Positions 5,154 through 10,278 of a stretch of 39,822 nt of DNA are shown piece by piece. Location: contig NZ_CAIWNH010000054.1 of the NCBI RefSeq assembly GCF_903913935.1, positions 1-39,822 of the forward strand. Direction: 5' to 3'. Both the position numbers and the translations under genes were made by a program. Every line of letters begins with the position of its first letter. Within the stretch, counting starts at the first letter, position 1. Source of the DNA: an uncultured Mucilaginibacter sp. (GTDB taxonomy: Bacteria; Bacteroidota; Bacteroidia; Sphingobacteriales; Sphingobacteriaceae). The notes under the pieces were generated by a model. That model saw only the letters and a program-made list of their open reading frames with translations, had not been told where the DNA came from and did no database searches.

Positions 5154-5591
5154 ATGCTCTCAAAAAAAACAAAGTATGCGATTAAGGCCCTGGTGATATT
5201 GGGGAAGAATGCTGATAAACCACCGATGCAAATTCAAAAAATTGCTGAAGAGGAACGCATACCGAAAAAATTTCTCGAACAGATCTTATTGGATCTCCGC
5301 AATGCTGGGTACCTGTACAGTAAAAAAGGGGCCGGCGGCGGATACAGTTTGAATAAAGACCCTAAAGAAATATTCCTGGTTCATATATTGCGTATTACCG
5401 GCGGGCCGATAGCAATGGTGCCTTGCGCCAGCCTGAACTTTTTCCATAAATGTGAAGAGTGCCAGCAGGAAACTACCTGTGGCATTCGCGATGTGTTTAT
5501 AAAAGTGAGAGATGAAACTTTAAAAATATTATCAGAAACCAGTATTGCTGATATTATTGAAAAAGAAGAAAGCCTGACACTTAATTTGTAA
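5154..5591 (+). CDS. Rrf2 family transcriptional regulator
   Basis: 145 aa. An N-terminal winged helix-turn-helix (MLSKKTKYAIKALVIL, then IPKKFLEQILLDLRNAGYLYSKKGAGGGYSL) is the Rrf2 hallmark. Four cysteines follow in the C-terminal part: C91, C100, C103 and C109 (PCASLNFFHKCEECQQETTC). This resembles but does not equal the IscR cluster pattern, so an Fe-S cluster or thiol sensor is plausible. Rrf2 proteins in this position are known as regulators of sulfur assimilation and cysteine metabolism (for example CymR). It precedes the sulfite reductase operon in the same direction with 386 bases between them, holding a candidate operator, a Cys leader peptide and a terminator. Its control of that operon is inferred from position. 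Confidence 0.9.
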   Translation: MLSKKTKYAIKALVILGKNADKPPMQIQKIAEEERIPKKFLEQILLDLRNAGYLYSKKGAGGGYSLNKDPKEIFLVHILRITGGPIAMVPCASLNFFHKCEECQQETTCGIRDVFIKVRDETLKILSETSIADIIEKEESLTLNL

Positions 5592-5774
5592 ACCTGGGCC
5601 CCGGTTCTATGACCGGGCAATACTTTATTACCGATCATATCTCCTATCGACACCCGGTAAAATAGCCCTGCATTTGTTTACTTTGGTGTTTTACCAGAAA
5701 CTATAAACAGATTTAGCAGTCGTTAAAATGTGCTTTTAAGTGTAATTAAAAGGTAAAAAACAGTTTTTTTTAAT

Positions 5775-5810
5775 AAATTACTACCAATTCCGTATACTAT
5801 GTAGATATTT
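5775..5810. promoter_or_regulatory. candidate operator, AAATnnCTAC inverted repeat
   Basis: AAATTACTAC (5775-5784) and GTAGATATTT (5801-5810) form arms that match at 8 of 10 positions, around a 16-base AT-rich centre. The site lies 12 bases upstream of the leader peptide, where the promoter of the sulfite reductase operon must be. It is a candidate site for the Rrf2 protein encoded upstream. Binding is inferred only from position and symmetry. Confidence 0.4.
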
Positions 5811-5822
5811 GCGATTAAGTAT

Positions 5823-5888
5823 ATGAAAAGAACAGGGAATTATATCAAATCTGCCATGATGTGTTGCTGCCACAATAGCATCAGGTAA
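5823..5888 (+). CDS. cysteine-codon leader peptide (21 aa)
   Basis: A 21-codon frame, ATG at 5823 to TAA at 5886-5888, whose core reads Ala-Met-Met-Cys-Cys-Cys-His-Asn (Cys codons TGT TGC TGC at 5862-5870). Three consecutive Cys codons in so short a peptide are very unlikely by chance. The frame sits 89 bases ahead of sulfite reductase, and its stop codon touches the first strand of an antiterminator/terminator pair. This is the architecture of a translation-attenuation leader. If charged Cys-tRNA is scarce, ribosomes stall at 5862-5870. Otherwise they reach the stop and cover the antiterminator strand. The peptide itself probably has no function after synthesis. It is too short for standard gene callers. 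Confidence 0.75.
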   Translation: MKRTGNYIKSAMMCCCHNSIR

Positions 5889-5925
5889 GGGCTTTATATT
5901 AAACAATAAAAAGAAATGTAAGCCT
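5889..5925 (+). promoter_or_regulatory. candidate antiterminator hairpin
   Basis: GGGCTT (5889-5894), immediately after the leader stop codon, can pair with AAGCCT (5920-5925; six pairs including one G-U). AAGCCT is also the left arm of the terminator, so the two structures exclude each other. A ribosome stalled on the Cys codons leaves 5889-5894 free, while one at the stop codon hides it. This gives read-through under cysteine limitation. Confidence 0.6.
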
Positions 5926-5953
5926 CTTTAGCCACAGCCGAAGGGGCTTTTTT
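5920..5953 (+). terminator. intrinsic terminator of the Cys attenuator
   Basis: Left arm AAGCCTCTT (5920-5928) and right arm AAGGGGCTT (5941-5949) form a nine-pair stem with one G-U, followed by a run of T to 5953. It lies upstream of sulfite reductase and 331 bases past the Rrf2 stop, so its likely role is conditional termination in the leader, not the end of the Rrf2 transcript. Confidence 0.75.
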
Positions 5954-5977
5954 ATAACACAAAACTAAACAACGCTT

Positions 5978-8071
5978 ATGCAAAGCTTCAGAACAGAACT
6001 GGAGAACCCGATAGTTGAACAGGACATTATCGACCTTGAAAAAAAGATCAGGGCTTTCCGCGAAGGAAAGATCCATGATGAAAAATTCAGGAGTCTGCGC
6101 CTGGCCAGGGGGGTTTACGGACAACGCCAGCCAGGTGTACAAATGGTGCGTATCAAACTTCCATTTGGTAAGGTAACCTTTAAGCAATTAATAAAAATTG
6201 CAGATATTGCCGACGAATATGGAAGCGGCAACCTGCACTTAACTACCCGCCAGGATATCCAGATCCATTATGTAAGCCTTGACCGGACCCCGCAATTATG
6301 GGCTGAATTGGAACAGGATGATATTACATTACGTGAAGCCTGCGGCAATACCGTAAGAAATGTTACCTCATCGCCCACTTCGGGCATCGATCCAAAAGAA
6401 CCATTTGATGTATCGCCTTATGCACAGGCAACATTTGAATATTTTTTGCGGAACCCGATTTGCCAGGAAATGGGCAGGAAGTTCAAAATCTCCTTTTCCT
6501 CAGCTGAGGATGATACCGCGTTTTCTTATATCCATGATATCGGTGTTATCCCAAAGATCAACGACAAAGGCGAACGAGGTTTTAAAGTAGGTTTGGCTGG
6601 TGGTCTGGGCGCTCAGCCGTTTATGGCCAGTATTGTTGAAGAATTTTTGCCTGAAGAACAGCTGATCCCTTACATTGAGGCTATTATTCGTGTATTTGAC
6701 CGCCATGGTGAACGGAACAACCGTAACAAAGCCCGATTGAAATACCTGGTTCAAAAAATTGGTTTAGCGGAAGTTTTGCAGTTGGCTGAAAATGAAAGGA
6801 AAGCGCTTAAGGTAAAAACATATCCAATCAACAGGGATACGGTGCCTGCCCCTGCCCTTCCGGCTGAAATACCATATCCTGAAGTTATTATAAACAACCC
6901 CTTACGTTATGAGCAGTGGCTTATCACCAATGTTTTTGAGCAGAAGCAAACCGGTTTTTACGGTGTTTATGTAAAAGTACCTGTCGGCGATATCCCAACA
7001 GCAACAGCCCGCAAACTGGTTGACGCAATAAAACCTTATGTTGCTGATGAGATCAGGATCACACAAACACAAGGTTTGTTGCTTAAATACGTTAAGAAGG
7101 AAGCCTTGCCTGCTTTATATAATGGTTTAACTGAATTGGATCTGTCAGCTCCTGGTTTTGACAGCCCTGCGGATGTAACCACCTGCCCTGGTACAGATAC
7201 CTGTAACCTGGGGATTTCCAACAGCATGACACTTTCCCGTGTGCTGGAAGATTTGATCTATAATGAATACGAAGAATTTATATATAACCGCGAAATTAAA
7301 ATAAAGATCAGCGGGTGCATGAACTCATGCGGGCAGCATGGTTTGGCGCATATCGGCTTCCACGGTAGCTCCTTAAAGTCGGGTACAAGGGTATTACCAT
7401 CGGTGCAGGTATTGCTTGGCGGAGGAACAGTTGGCGATGGCGTTGGCCGCGCTGCTGAAAAAGTAATAAAAGTTCCGGCAAAACGTGCAACACATGTATT
7501 AAGGGCTGTTTTGAACGACTATAAAAACAATTCATTAGCGGAAGAAACCTTCCATAATTACTATGATCGCCTGGGTAAAGATTACTTTTATCAGTTATTA
7601 AAACCCCTTGCTGATTTGACCACCCTTACGGATGACGAATTTATTGACTGGGGCCACCAGGAAACATTTGCTACCGCGATAGGCGTTGGCGAATGTGCCG
7701 GCGTGGTAATTGACCTGGTTGCGACTTTGCTTTACGAATCGGACGAAAAATTTGGCTGGGCAAATGAAGCCTTTGCAGGCGGAAGATGGTCAGATGCTAT
7801 TTATCATTCTTATAATACCTTCATCAGTTCGGCAAAAGCTTTGTTGCTGGATAAAAGCATCAACAGCAGTACCCAATCTGGTATCATCCGCGAATTTGAT
7901 AATCACTACGTAAGCACTGGTGAAATAATTTTACCAACCAGCTTTAACGACCTGGTATTACAGATCAATAAAAACGATCCATCTGAAAATTTCGCTGCAG
8001 CATATATTAAAGAAGCAGCTGAATTTTTAGAAACCGTTAAAGCAAAGAGAGAGGAATTGGTGCAATCATGA
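5978..8071 (+). CDS. siroheme sulfite (nitrite) reductase with C-terminal HEPN-like domain
   Basis: 697 aa. Two ferredoxin-like nitrite/sulfite reductase halves fill about residues 40-560. The 4Fe-4S and siroheme ligands are C403, C409, C447 and C451 (TCPGTDTCNLG and SGCMNSCGQHG). The enzyme reduces sulfite to sulfide with six electrons. Nitrite reduction cannot be excluded, but the flanking cobA, Met8 and cysH genes and the Cys leader argue for sulfite. About 130 residues follow the catalytic core (565-697), which typical enzymes lack. They are all-helical and include GGRWSDAIYHSYNTFISSAKALL, like a HEPN or helical-bundle domain. The ATG at 5978 follows the attenuator by 25 bases. The stop overlaps the cobA start (ATGA), so the two are translationally coupled. 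Confidence 0.9.
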   Translation: MQSFRTELENPIVEQDIIDLEKKIRAFREGKIHDEKFRSLRLARGVYGQRQPGVQMVRIKLPFGKVTFKQLIKIADIADEYGSGNLHLTTRQDIQIHYVSLDRTPQLWAELEQDDITLREACGNTVRNVTSSPTSGIDPKEPFDVSPYAQATFEYFLRNPICQEMGRKFKISFSSAEDDTAFSYIHDIGVIPKINDKGERGFKVGLAGGLGAQPFMASIVEEFLPEEQLIPYIEAIIRVFDRHGERNNRNKARLKYLVQKIGLAEVLQLAENERKALKVKTYPINRDTVPAPALPAEIPYPEVIINNPLRYEQWLITNVFEQKQTGFYGVYVKVPVGDIPTATARKLVDAIKPYVADEIRITQTQGLLLKYVKKEALPALYNGLTELDLSAPGFDSPADVTTCPGTDTCNLGISNSMTLSRVLEDLIYNEYEEFIYNREIKIKISGCMNSCGQHGLAHIGFHGSSLKSGTRVLPSVQVLLGGGTVGDGVGRAAEKVIKVPAKRATHVLRAVLNDYKNNSLAEETFHNYYDRLGKDYFYQLLKPLADLTTLTDDEFIDWGHQETFATAIGVGECAGVVIDLVATLLYESDEKFGWANEAFAGGRWSDAIYHSYNTFISSAKALLLDKSINSSTQSGIIREFDNHYVSTGEIILPTSFNDLVLQINKNDPSENFAAAYIKEAAEFLETVKAKREELVQS

Positions 8072-8856
8072 TCGTAACGACTGAAAAAAATATTAAAGAA
8101 CCACGTATAACCCTTTTAGGTGCCGGCCCGGGCGACCCGGACCTGATTACCTTAAAAGGGGTAAAAGCATTAAAAACGGCTGATGTTGTTTTATATGATG
8201 CACTGGTTAACGAAGAACTGCTGGAATTTGCCACTGAAAGCGCAGTGAAAGTTTATGTGGGCAAACGTTCCGGCGACCATACCCATTCGCAGGATTCGAT
8301 CAATAAACTGATGGTCGATTACGCCCTTAATTACGGCCACGTAGTTCGTTTAAAAGGCGGCGACCCCTTTGTTTTTGGCCGTGGATTTGAAGAATTGGAC
8401 TTTGCCGCTTCCTACAGCATTCCGACAGTAGTAATTCCGGGGATCTCCAGTTCTATTGGTGTGCCGGGAATGCAAAATATCCCGGTAACGCACCGCGGGT
8501 TGAGCGAAAGTTTTTGGGTGATAACTGGCACTACGTCCAGCGGCAAAATTTCCAATGATGTTTATGAAGCTGCCCGTACAAAGGCTACCATCGTTGTACT
8601 GATGGGTGTCCATAAACTGGCTGAAATTACCGAAATATTTAAAAAAGAAGGTAAAAATAAATTGCCGGTGGCCGTTATTCAAAGCGGTACTACCAATAAT
8701 GAAAAAGTAGCAGTGGGTATTGTGGATACGATTGTTGAAATTGTGGAAGAAAATAAGATCACCTCGCCGGCGCTTATCGTTTTTGGCGAAGTGGTTTCAT
8801 TACATCCGAAATTTCAACCCATTAAGGAATTTTATGACATCATTGCCGAAGAATAA
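8068..8856 (+). CDS. cobA: uroporphyrinogen-III C-methyltransferase (SUMT)
   Basis: 262 aa. It adds two SAM-derived methyl groups to uroporphyrinogen III, giving precorrin-2, the first step to siroheme. The tetrapyrrole methyltransferase signatures are present: LLGAGPGDPDLITLKG near residue 14, VRLKGGDPFVFGRG near 92, and GVPGMQNIPVTHRGLS near 131. The start overlaps the sulfite reductase stop by 4 bases, and the 3' end overlaps the next gene by 23 bases, indicating one operon. It is the stand-alone form and is not fused to the dehydrogenase/ferrochelatase as in CysG. The product feeds the siroheme centre of the reductase upstream. Confidence 0.95.
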   Translation: MIVTTEKNIKEPRITLLGAGPGDPDLITLKGVKALKTADVVLYDALVNEELLEFATESAVKVYVGKRSGDHTHSQDSINKLMVDYALNYGHVVRLKGGDPFVFGRGFEELDFAASYSIPTVVIPGISSSIGVPGMQNIPVTHRGLSESFWVITGTTSSGKISNDVYEAARTKATIVVLMGVHKLAEITEIFKKEGKNKLPVAVIQSGTTNNEKVAVGIVDTIVEIVEENKITSPALIVFGEVVSLHPKFQPIKEFYDIIAEE

Positions 8857-9493
8857 TCAATCAAAAACAGGCAAAACAGGCCAGCCGCAAGGCAACCAGT
8901 TATTCCCTGTTTTTTTAAAGCTTAACCAATTGCATACGGTGCTTATTGGTGCAGGTAATATCGGCCTCGAAAAGCTGGCCGCTATACTGCAAAACAGCCC
9001 GGAAGCAAAAGTTACGGTGATAGCTTTAACGATTATTCCTGAAGTATACGCATTGGCAGTTGAATTTGAAGCTGTGAGTATTGTACAAAAGTCATTTACG
9101 GATACCGACCTTGATGAGGCAGACATCGTGGTAGCAGCCACCAATAATCCTGAATTGAATGATTTTATCAGGCAATCGGCGCGCAGCCGCAGGTTGTTGG
9201 TAAATATTGCAGATAAACCCGACTTGTGCGATTTTTATTTAGGGTCGATAGTTCAAAAAGGCGATCTGAAGATTGCCATATCTACCAACGGCAAATCACC
9301 TACCATAGCCAAAAGGCTGAAAGAGGTATTAAAGGAAGCTTTGCCGGATGAACTGGACACCACGTTGCAGCAAATGAGCAGGTTAAGAGATACGCTGGGT
9401 GGTGATTTTGCGGGAAAAGTAAAAACACTTAACGAGATCACATCGGTATTGGTAAGTGATCGGGTAACAAAAGATGATAATAACAGTGATTGA
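8834..9493 (+). CDS. siroheme synthase, precorrin-2 dehydrogenase/ferrochelatase (Met8/CysG-N type)
   Basis: 219 aa from the ATG at 8834. A longer in-frame start at 8720 would add 38 basic residues that only reflect the overlapping cobA frame. The Rossmann NAD-binding motif is VLIGAGNIGLEKLAAIL (about residues 35-51), followed by VVAATNNPELNDFI, VNIADKPDLCDFYLGS and the helix ISTNGKSPTIAKRLKEVL that ends the catalytic region. The enzyme oxidises precorrin-2 to sirohydrochlorin with NAD+ and may insert Fe2+. It overlaps cobA by 23 bases and is clearly cotranscribed. The C-terminal methyltransferase part of CysG is absent, as expected, because cobA is separate. Confidence 0.92.
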   Translation: MTSLPKNNQSKTGKTGQPQGNQLFPVFLKLNQLHTVLIGAGNIGLEKLAAILQNSPEAKVTVIALTIIPEVYALAVEFEAVSIVQKSFTDTDLDEADIVVAATNNPELNDFIRQSARSRRLLVNIADKPDLCDFYLGSIVQKGDLKIAISTNGKSPTIAKRLKEVLKEALPDELDTTLQQMSRLRDTLGGDFAGKVKTLNEITSVLVSDRVTKDDNNSD

Positions 9494-9543: not shown

Positions 9544-10278
9544 ATGATTGATATAGCAGAAGAACTGAAACAACAAACTGAAGGGTTAGGGCCAGTTGAA
9601 ACTTTGGCTTACCTTGCGGATGCATTCCAGGGTAAAATCATATTTTCCACCAGCTTTGGTTGGGAAGACCAGGTTGTTACCCATATGATATTTGACAATA
9701 ACCTGCCTATAAAAGTTTTTACCCTCGAAACCGGCAGGCTGTTCCCTGAAACATATTATGTTTGGAACCGTACCATGGAAATTTTTGGACATCCCATACA
9801 CGCCTACTACCCCAGGCAGGATCTGCTCGAACAAATGGTTACCAAAAAAGGCCCGAATAGCTTCTATGAATCCGTAGAAAACCGCAAGGAATGCTGCAAT
9901 ATCAGGAAGGTGGAGCCGTTAAAGCGCGCGCTTTCAGGTAATGATATCTGGATCACCGGGATCCGCGCCGAGCAATCACCTGTACGGGGTTCATTGGAAG
10001 ATATTGAATGGGACGACCAGAACAAGCTGGTAAAGTTCCATCCTATTTACCATTGGTCAATTGACGAAGTAAAAGACTATATAAGATTATATAATATCCC
10101 TTATAACACATTGCACGATAGAGGTTTCCCAAGCATCGGCTGTGCCCCATGTACCCGCGCTGTACAACCCGGCGAAGATTTCCGTGCCGGAAGATGGTGG
10201 TGGGAAGACCAGTCAAAAAAAGAATGCGGCTTGCATGATACGTCGGCCGTTGCGCATGAGGAAGTGTTTAGAGCATAG
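9544..10278 (+). CDS. cysH: phosphoadenylyl-/adenylyl-sulfate reductase
   Basis: 244 aa. It reduces APS or PAPS to sulfite with thioredoxin or a similar donor. The N-terminal nucleotide loop (FSTSFGWEDQVVTHM) is followed by the Fe-S signature C117-C118 (CCNIRKVEPLKRAL) and C200/C203 (GCAPCTR). The catalytic Cys is C228 in KKECGLH. The CC...CxxC pattern marks the 4Fe-4S type, which usually prefers APS, so APS reductase is the more likely activity. It follows the Met8 gene by 50 bases in the same direction and ends the operon before a strong hairpin. cysD and cysN (ATP sulfurylase) and a sulfate transporter do not follow here. Confidence 0.95.
   Translation: MIDIAEELKQQTEGLGPVETLAYLADAFQGKIIFSTSFGWEDQVVTHMIFDNNLPIKVFTLETGRLFPETYYVWNRTMEIFGHPIHAYYPRQDLLEQMVTKKGPNSFYESVENRKECCNIRKVEPLKRALSGNDIWITGIRAEQSPVRGSLEDIEWDDQNKLVKFHPIYHWSIDEVKDYIRLYNIPYNTLHDRGFPSIGCAPCTRAVQPGEDFRAGRWWWEDQSKKECGLHDTSAVAHEEVFRA

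Follow-up and report, generated by a model that had tools for sequence, protein, structure and literature searches.

A cysteine-codon leader and terminator precede sulfite reductase genes in many families of Bacteroidia and suggest ribosome-mediated attenuation

The sulfite reductase operon of an uncultured Mucilaginibacter sp. is preceded by a short open reading frame (ORF) with a run of cysteine codons and by an intrinsic terminator. On the basis of the sequence comparisons described here we propose, with a probability of roughly 0.86, that this leader works by ribosome-mediated attenuation of transcription in response to charged tRNA-Cys, and probably to Met as well. The operon lies in a stretch of 39,822 nucleotides, hereafter the window (RefSeq assembly GCF_903913935.1, contig NZ_CAIWNH010000054.1, positions 1 to 39,822, forward strand). 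An earlier note on this DNA had suggested attenuation, a reading now supported by conservation of the Cys cluster, the ORF, the pairing strand and the terminator and by covariation of the antiterminator in 23 relatives. Clustered codons for the pathway product (here Cys) in a short ORF, an intrinsic terminator and, in relatives, a covarying antiterminator are features of trp- and his-type attenuators; for the window taken singly the antiterminator is not significant. Sulfur control in Bacteroidota is usually assumed to lie with protein regulators such as Rrf2, and to our knowledge it is poorly known how these bacteria sense cysteine and methionine sufficiency.

Results

Organization of the leader and its operon

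The features of the leader region and the genes around it are listed in Table 1. The predicted promoter is sigma-A-like, with a -7 box at 5804-5811 that differs at one position from the Bacteroidota consensus TAnnTTTG, described as the sigma-A -7 box (PMC9723704, in excerpt). The ORF starts 11 bases past this box. Reading the sequence directly from 5200 to 7000 confirmed, in all its coordinates, the 21-codon Cys ORF with MMCCC that the earlier note had reported; the Met codons lie at 5856-5861 and the Cys codons at 5862-5870. GGGCTT (5889-5894) directly adjoins the stop codon of the leader and, as had also been pointed out, is near-identical to the right arm of the terminator, GGGGCTT. The terminator stem joins AAGCCTCTT (5920-5928) to AAGGGGCTT (5941-5949) through 9 bp, one of them G-U, with an additional short inner GC helix, and the T run ends 24 bases 5' of the reductase ATG.

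Table 1. Features of the leader region and neighbouring genes, in window positions.
Feature	Position	Strand	Details
Rrf2-family regulator, outside the attenuator	5154..5591	+	PF02082, E 2.4e-37
Promoter (predicted)	5780..5811	+	stretch ACTAC..TTCCnTATAnTAT ending in -7 box GATATTTG; read from sequence
Leader peptide ORF	5823..5888	+	MKRTGNYIKSAMMCCCHNSIR and stop; ATG 5823, TAA 5886-5888, 21 codons
Putative regulatory codons Met-Met-Cys-Cys-Cys	5856..5870	+	codons 12-16, ATG ATG TGT TGC TGC
Putative antiterminator 5' strand (region 2)	5887..5900	+	contains GGGCTT; from stalled-ribosome fold
Putative antiterminator 3' strand (region 3)	5915..5928	+	5920-5928 doubles as terminator left arm; from fold, and from relatives by analogy
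Intrinsic terminator	5920..5953	+	hairpin 5920-5949, T run to 5953; detector score 24
Sulfite/nitrite reductase (siroheme/4Fe-4S), first gene of run	5978..8071	+	PF01077, E 1e-51; PF03460, E 7.6e-39
Uroporphyrinogen-III C-methyltransferase (siroheme synthesis)	8068..8856	+	TIGR01469, 272.8 bits, above cutoff
Siroheme synthase N-terminal domain/precorrin-2 dehydrogenase	8720..9493	+	TIGR01470, 116.7 bits, above cutoff
Adenylylsulfate/PAPS reductase (CysH-type)	9544..10278	+	TIGR02055, 244.4 bits, and NF002537, 265.9 bits, above cutoff

The role of the operon is sulfide production together with supply of the siroheme cofactor, and from the neighbouring genes the substrate of the reductase appears to be sulfite rather than nitrite. 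The methyltransferase gene shares 4 bases with the reductase gene. The third ORF overlaps the preceding gene by 137 bases and its siroheme-synthase domain begins only at residue 62, so its true start is probably 3' of 8720.

In the proposed mechanism, RNA polymerase would start just past the -7 box and a ribosome would enter the ORF near the 5' end of the transcript. With Cys-tRNA plentiful, the ribosome would reach the stop codon and cover 5887-5900; the two arms of the terminator would then pair, and transcription would stop before sulfite reductase. With Cys-tRNA scarce, the ribosome would stall at the Cys codons, and 5887-5900, left free, would pair with 5915-5928, so that no terminator would form and the sulfide and siroheme genes would be transcribed. 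Translation of the ORF is likely because its codons are conserved. The leading edge of a ribosome lies 16 nt from the P site, which in the window places it at about 5875 for a stall at the first Cys codon and at 5899 for a ribosome at the stop codon. A stalled ribosome would by this geometry leave strand 2 (5887-5900) free, and one at the stop codon would cover it.

Conservation of the leader among close relatives

We compared the best 80 of at least 582 loci by reductase protein, mostly from Mucilaginibacter and Pedobacter; the 80 upstream regions judged are those of 79 loci plus the window, L042 being left out since it starts inside the gene. An ORF with at least one Cys codon lies behind the promoter in 57 of the 80, the window included, a split of 57 to 23 that was called by eye. 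A one-genome artefact can accordingly be dismissed. Of these 57 leaders, 43 have a CC pair in frame 0, one has it in frame 1 and one in frame 2, which rejects conservation at the level of DNA instead of codons; Cys is encoded by TGT 82 times and TGC 69 times. Since both codons are used and CC keeps to frame 0, it is the amino acid that is kept and not the DNA. Typical clusters are MMCCC, MYCCM, MCCCCKTQ, HYCCKT and SHCMCV, and some leaders have a single Cys, the number ranging from 1 to 7.

At 46 of the 80 named loci a detector for Cys-rich short ORFs with an intrinsic terminator matched just 5' of the reductase; its matches in other places numbered 40 in 1.55 million base-strands. The combination rarely occurs by chance. 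An 11-bp terminator consensus was found in 17 Pedobacter leaders. The earlier note had made its proposal depend on the Cys run and the two hairpins recurring in related genomes, and they are indeed conserved in Mucilaginibacter, Pedobacter and 16 further families.

The conserved ORF might instead encode a small protein with a function of its own, such as a metal-binding peptide, as its Cys-rich composition and conserved position would allow. This is very improbable: by inspection, families share little outside the Cys/Met cluster, the number of Cys residues varies over the range given above, and the ORF is coupled to a terminator and an antiterminator. The window peptide has no match in Pfam or NCBIfam, so a known peptide family is out. 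Even less probable is a metabolite-binding riboswitch or other known RNA family. A structured leader ahead of a biosynthetic operon would suit one, but what is conserved is codons and not an aptamer, and the window leader matched no Rfam family at its gathering score (weak matches at E >= 0.59, all far under threshold), which excludes the known RNA families.

No proper Cys leader was found in 23 of the 80 close loci, among which we count L013, whose Cys ORF runs through the terminator, and L007 and L011, which have YCC only behind a TTG start. L004 retains the leader ORF and the terminator and has lost all its Cys codons (MKKEDITYYKIYIYGLMQSDRS); L018 has a start-proximal MQICCC ORF behind the promoter and lacks the terminator. 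These two are possible decaying attenuators and natural controls. At L025, L036, L037 and L041 the leader is gone and the same promoter stands straight before the reductase, with a -7 box that starts 67-73 nt 5' of the ATG.

The spacing between promoter and ORF is short. In the Pedobacter part of the set (L043-L080) 27 of the 28 leaders have their ATG 4 nt past the -7 box, a hint that the leader mRNA there may be nearly leaderless; in the Mucilaginibacter part the spacing is 4-14 nt.

Promoter conservation and the Rrf2 regulator

A loose regular expression for the stretch ACTAC..TTCCnTATAnTAT matched 54 of the 57 loci with a leader and 21 of the 23 without one. The conserved part upstream of the promoter is possibly an operator, and its retention with and without a leader would fit a second explanation, in which a Rrf2/CymR-like regulator at the promoter exerts the main control and leader and terminator merely set a basal level. 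A Rrf2 gene lies directly 5' of the operon in the window; its best NCBIfam equivalog is CymR, at 82 bits against a cutoff of 195 and thus below it. Within at most 4 kb upstream, a Rrf2 gene is present at 18 of 22 loci without a leader and at 31 of 55 with one (Fisher p 0.04, uncorrected for relatedness; L031 and L050, with short upstream regions, L042 and the window are omitted), a distribution as if leader and Rrf2 replaced each other. Yet at 24 loci with a leader no Rrf2 gene lies within the upstream sequence examined (up to 4 kb), and neither the in-frame Cys codons nor the covarying antiterminator call for a protein regulator. We regard mainly protein-based control as unlikely, though well ahead of the small-protein and riboswitch readings. 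With a Rrf2 gene 5' of the operon and the promoter kept where the leader is gone, protein control of initiation may coexist with attenuation; judged from these arrangements, control of initiation and of elongation may either coexist or replace each other.

The antiterminator

Attenuation as proposed here needs strand 2 to compete for the left arm of the terminator. The earlier note had paired GGGCTT with that arm; the pairing is foldable, as part of an antiterminator longer than had been described. In the stalled state RNAfold predicts 13 bp between 5887-5900 and 5915-5928 (-7.7 kcal/mol), with single-base bulges at 5895 and 5925, and the terminator left arm (5920-5928) is engaged save for its bulged base. 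This energy is well above that of the terminator (-7.7 against -14.9), so the antiterminator must win kinetically. Within the window by itself, complementarity between regions 2 and 3 is within chance (duplex p = 0.45; fold z = -0.29). The window and its eight nearest leaders (L083 and seven others) have GGCTT by the stop codon and AAGCC in 9 of 9 cases; strand 3 is invariant in this subgroup, and covariation therefore cannot be shown there.

Complementarity between the spacer and the left arm is pronounced in 42 leaders of other families, with a mean z of -2.58, p <= 0.01 in 21 and p <= 0.05 in 28. In the window's own family it is weak, with a mean z of -0.86 and p <= 0.05 in 8 of 54 leaders, a set that holds three genomes twice (L040/L150, L039/L153 and L043/L157). 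Stalled-state folds engage at least 4 left-arm bases in 47 of 58 and 40 of 42 leaders, a count made without a shuffled control.

Covariation was found in an alignment (A1) of 23 same-family leaders, chosen by eye and by strand-2 motif, from which the window and its nearest relatives are absent; it comprises 23 of 24 chosen rows, L068 being omitted as the same as L058. Given no structure, RNAalifold returned a helix between a GGCUG strand and the CAGCC of the terminator, an antiterminator that excludes the terminator. All 115 of 115 cells of this helix are paired, and two pairs are changed on both sides, one in 5 sequences and the other in 3, each time from GC to AU. This makes 8 doubly changed cells, against a shuffled mean of 2.1; none of 500 shuffles, which ignore relatedness, reached 8, though 159 of 500 reached the number of doubly changed pairs (2). 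With the partner slid along, 10-45% of cells are paired, a control that favours a structure taken from those very sequences. For 17 further Pedobacter leaders (A2) RNAalifold returned the terminator and not the antiterminator. Support beyond chance for the predicted antiterminator comes from more distant relatives, and by analogy the weaker antiterminator of the window probably works in the same way.

Several leaders of other families (e.g. L190, L098 and L165) are of a second type, with the antiterminator strand inside the ORF. Strand 2 here lies roughly 11-43 nt before the stop codon, and a different order of events is needed. The peptide tail conserved in this type (MRK.., RKGFVF) may owe its conservation to RNA pairing and not to a role of the protein.

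Spread across the class and tandem leaders

For a wider view we sampled 396 Bacteroidia genomes evenly; 95 have the reductase, and 93 upstream regions of 0.3-3 kb were examined (all except those of G274 and G369). The detector found a leader with a terminator 5' of the reductase in 41 of the 93 genomes, of which about two may be chance matches by the reverse-strand rate, and in 17 of 26 families. As controls, the reverse strand yielded 2 matches in 93 regions, and five shuffled sets yielded 0, 0, 0, 1 and 0. In 52 of the 93 upstream regions the detector had no match; it overlooks leaders that are visible by eye in L085 and L100, as well as a distant leader in L112. The leader is absent from all 11 loci of family f53, 8 of f12, 4 of f15 and 4 of f67, and from five smaller families; the existence of families without it makes the leader widespread and not universal. 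Outside the class, none of 4 genomes (of 7 with a reductase match) had a leader, too few to judge. CysD was considered as another target and rejected: 30 loci, 26 of them above the family cut-off, gave 1 chance-like match, inside the CysD reading; the set serves at the same time as a negative control for the reductase leaders.

At 11 loci of the class sample, two leader-terminator units stand serially before the reductase or its operon (L093, L094, L097, L098, L099, L111, L115, L166, L175, L185 and L190, in families f10, f16, f19, f21, f25, f37 and f43). The first unit often ends in MMCCMMCI or MCCMCI at its stop codon, and the tail of the second is longer, with the antiterminator strand falling within its codons at several loci. 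L100, which was excluded by the ORF filter, is a further tandem locus by eye. The window leader is a single unit.

Methionine codons beside the cysteine cluster

We counted residues in 96 leaders, after L080 -412 and L098 MQTAPCAV (chance-like) had been dropped. No other residue is nearly as enriched next to the Cys cluster as Met. Among non-Cys residues at most 3 positions from the cluster, Met accounts for 184 of 622, against 81 of 1547 elsewhere in the leaders. The enrichment holds outside the window's family (115/286, or 0.40, near the cluster and 51/830, or 6%, elsewhere), inside it (69/336 and 30/717) and with one leader per family (34/108 and 18/317), with a permutation p of 0.0002 for each set. 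ATG triplets near the cluster occur in frames 0, 1 and 2 in the numbers 115, 1 and 1 outside the window's family and 69, 1 and 1 inside it. Met codons stand before, within and after the Cys cluster, and extreme cases are MCMCMCMCCCM (L115) and MMCCMMCCC (L109).

With Met codons conserved beside the Cys codons, the term "cysteine leader" may be too narrow. A sensor of both amino acids is the natural reading because sulfide feeds both Cys and Met: the ribosome would read the two kinds of codon together and the operon would open if either amino acid ran short, which extends the attenuation model. The enrichment and the near-exclusive use of frame 0 both speak for such dual sensing, and so does a difference in Met content among the metY-like leaders described below. 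Against it, ribosomes might use the AUGs of the reading frame to re-initiate, and AUGs in the other frames are almost wholly missing. On balance we lean toward dual sensing, by a modest measure.

A second leader at metY-like genes and the SAM riboswitch

The genome of the window has a second Cys leader, MKSLIYNILQSIFRGQQVTQPVYIYSYAYNCNMCMCCCC, with a Cys run that ends at the stop codon, before a metY-like gene (G000:C24, locus L231, 4325-5590, minus strand). From its length and sequence we take this gene to be metY (O-acetylhomoserine sulfhydrylase). Counting ATGTGYTGY in the same genome was uninformative; one occurrence is the metY leader. Through an enzyme search with PF01053 we reached 10 metY-like loci, and each of the 10 has a comparable ORF directly preceded by a SAM riboswitch (RF00162). 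We also examined 29 metY-like loci from across the class: leader and SAM riboswitch occur together at 10; at 5 (families f3 and f11) there are two leaders and a SAM riboswitch was not detected; the ORFs at 2 look like chance; and 12 are leaderless. Among the leaderless, L243, L245, L246, L249, L252 and L266 have a SAM riboswitch.

The composite order is SAM-I riboswitch (RF00162), Cys-run leader, metY-like gene, with leaders that end, for instance, in CNMCMCCCC or CCCCCC at the stop codon. Besides L231 we saw it at L222, L223, L224, L226, L227, L228, L230, L232 and L235, and further at L239-L242, L244, L247, L250, L254 and L259. The SAM-less loci L248 and L251 (f11) and L253, L257 and L258 (f3) have Met-richer leaders, such as HCMCMCCMCM at the stop codon or MMCMCCCM, as if Met codons there replaced the riboswitch.

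The ratio M/(M+C) is 0.16 behind a SAM riboswitch (18 leaders, 7 families) and 0.46 without one (10 leaders, 5 loci, 2 families). Left out of these figures are L239 (same peptide as L231), L256 (same as L223) and the ORFs of L255 and L262, which look like chance. This contrast depends on the two SAM-less families, and some Met persists in 15 of the 18 leaders behind a SAM riboswitch, which tempers its weight for dual sensing. The detector found a T-run terminator at 0 of the 18 leaders behind a SAM riboswitch and at 5 of the 10 SAM-less leaders. We give even odds to a broader proposal, that Bacteroidota govern sulfur assimilation through ribosomes that read both Cys and Met, often with two attenuators in series, and that a SAM riboswitch and Met codons are modules that can stand in for each other.

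Discussion

The Bacteroid-trp motif, RF01692, has been reported in Bacteroidota (PMC2864571, in excerpt). Like trp- and his-type attenuators, the leader described here has a short ORF with codons for the product of the pathway, a strand 2 near the stop codon, alternative 2:3 and 3:4 hairpins, and a T run before the first gene. It differs from them in its codons, Cys (with Met), in the pathway, sulfite reduction, and in its short 5' UTR; we identified no protective 1:2 hairpin, and Rfam gave no match. RF01692 itself is presumably a trp leader.

Actinobacterial Cys leaders share with ours runs of Cys codons near the stop codon of a short ORF before cys operons (PMC1262725, in excerpt). A start codon near the 5' end, as predicted for our leaders, may be a further common feature; in mycobacteria the Cys leaders are reportedly leaderless (Canestrari 2020). 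The same excerpt gives no conserved terminator hairpin for the Mycobacterium leaders and suggests Rho (PMC1262725). In contrast, the leaders here have an intrinsic terminator, an antiterminator that covaries in relatives, and interspersed Met codons.

Two other systems are comparable. In Rhodobacterales, uORFC-8-2 upstream of cysS has two conserved Cys codons and an intrinsic terminator, and attenuation was proposed (PMC8632094, in excerpt); it differs in belonging to another phylum, in preceding a cysteinyl-tRNA synthetase gene and in having the Cys codons inside a stem, and the excerpt mentions no Met cluster. The Salmonella mgtCBR leader has two short ORFs, with an expected effect on stem-loops and transcription (PMC3641672, in excerpt), whereas at the tandem loci here, which belong to families other than that of the window, Cys/Met codons are present in both units and a separate T-run terminator goes with each.

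Within Bacteroidota, attenuation by leader peptides has been suggested for amino-acid operons of F. psychrophilum, with the leaders 5' of the genes (PMC9723704, in excerpt), and leader-peptide-like sORFs in 5' UTRs of B. thetaiotaomicron (PMC7366714, in excerpt). The earlier note knew of no Cys-leader attenuation in this phylum, and our search of the open-access literature likewise found, among the matches listed, no paper that describes attenuation through Cys or Cys/Met leaders for Bacteroidota. The mechanism is a known one; the taxon, the Cys and Met content and the tandem design look undescribed. What is possibly new here is the pair of amino acids sensed, the tandem design, a possible exchange with the SAM riboswitch, and the spread across the class.

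An attenuator of Cys codons with an intrinsic terminator, beside the Actinobacterial leaders, would probably be a case of convergent evolution. Single and tandem leaders, with or without a SAM riboswitch, form a natural design series, and a leader present in 17 of the 26 sampled families that have this reductase offers a directly testable mechanism. It would also serve as a marker for sulfur-responsive operons in uncultured members. Bacteroidota that carry the leader probably gauge cysteine, and perhaps methionine, through their ribosomes in deciding whether to produce sulfide.
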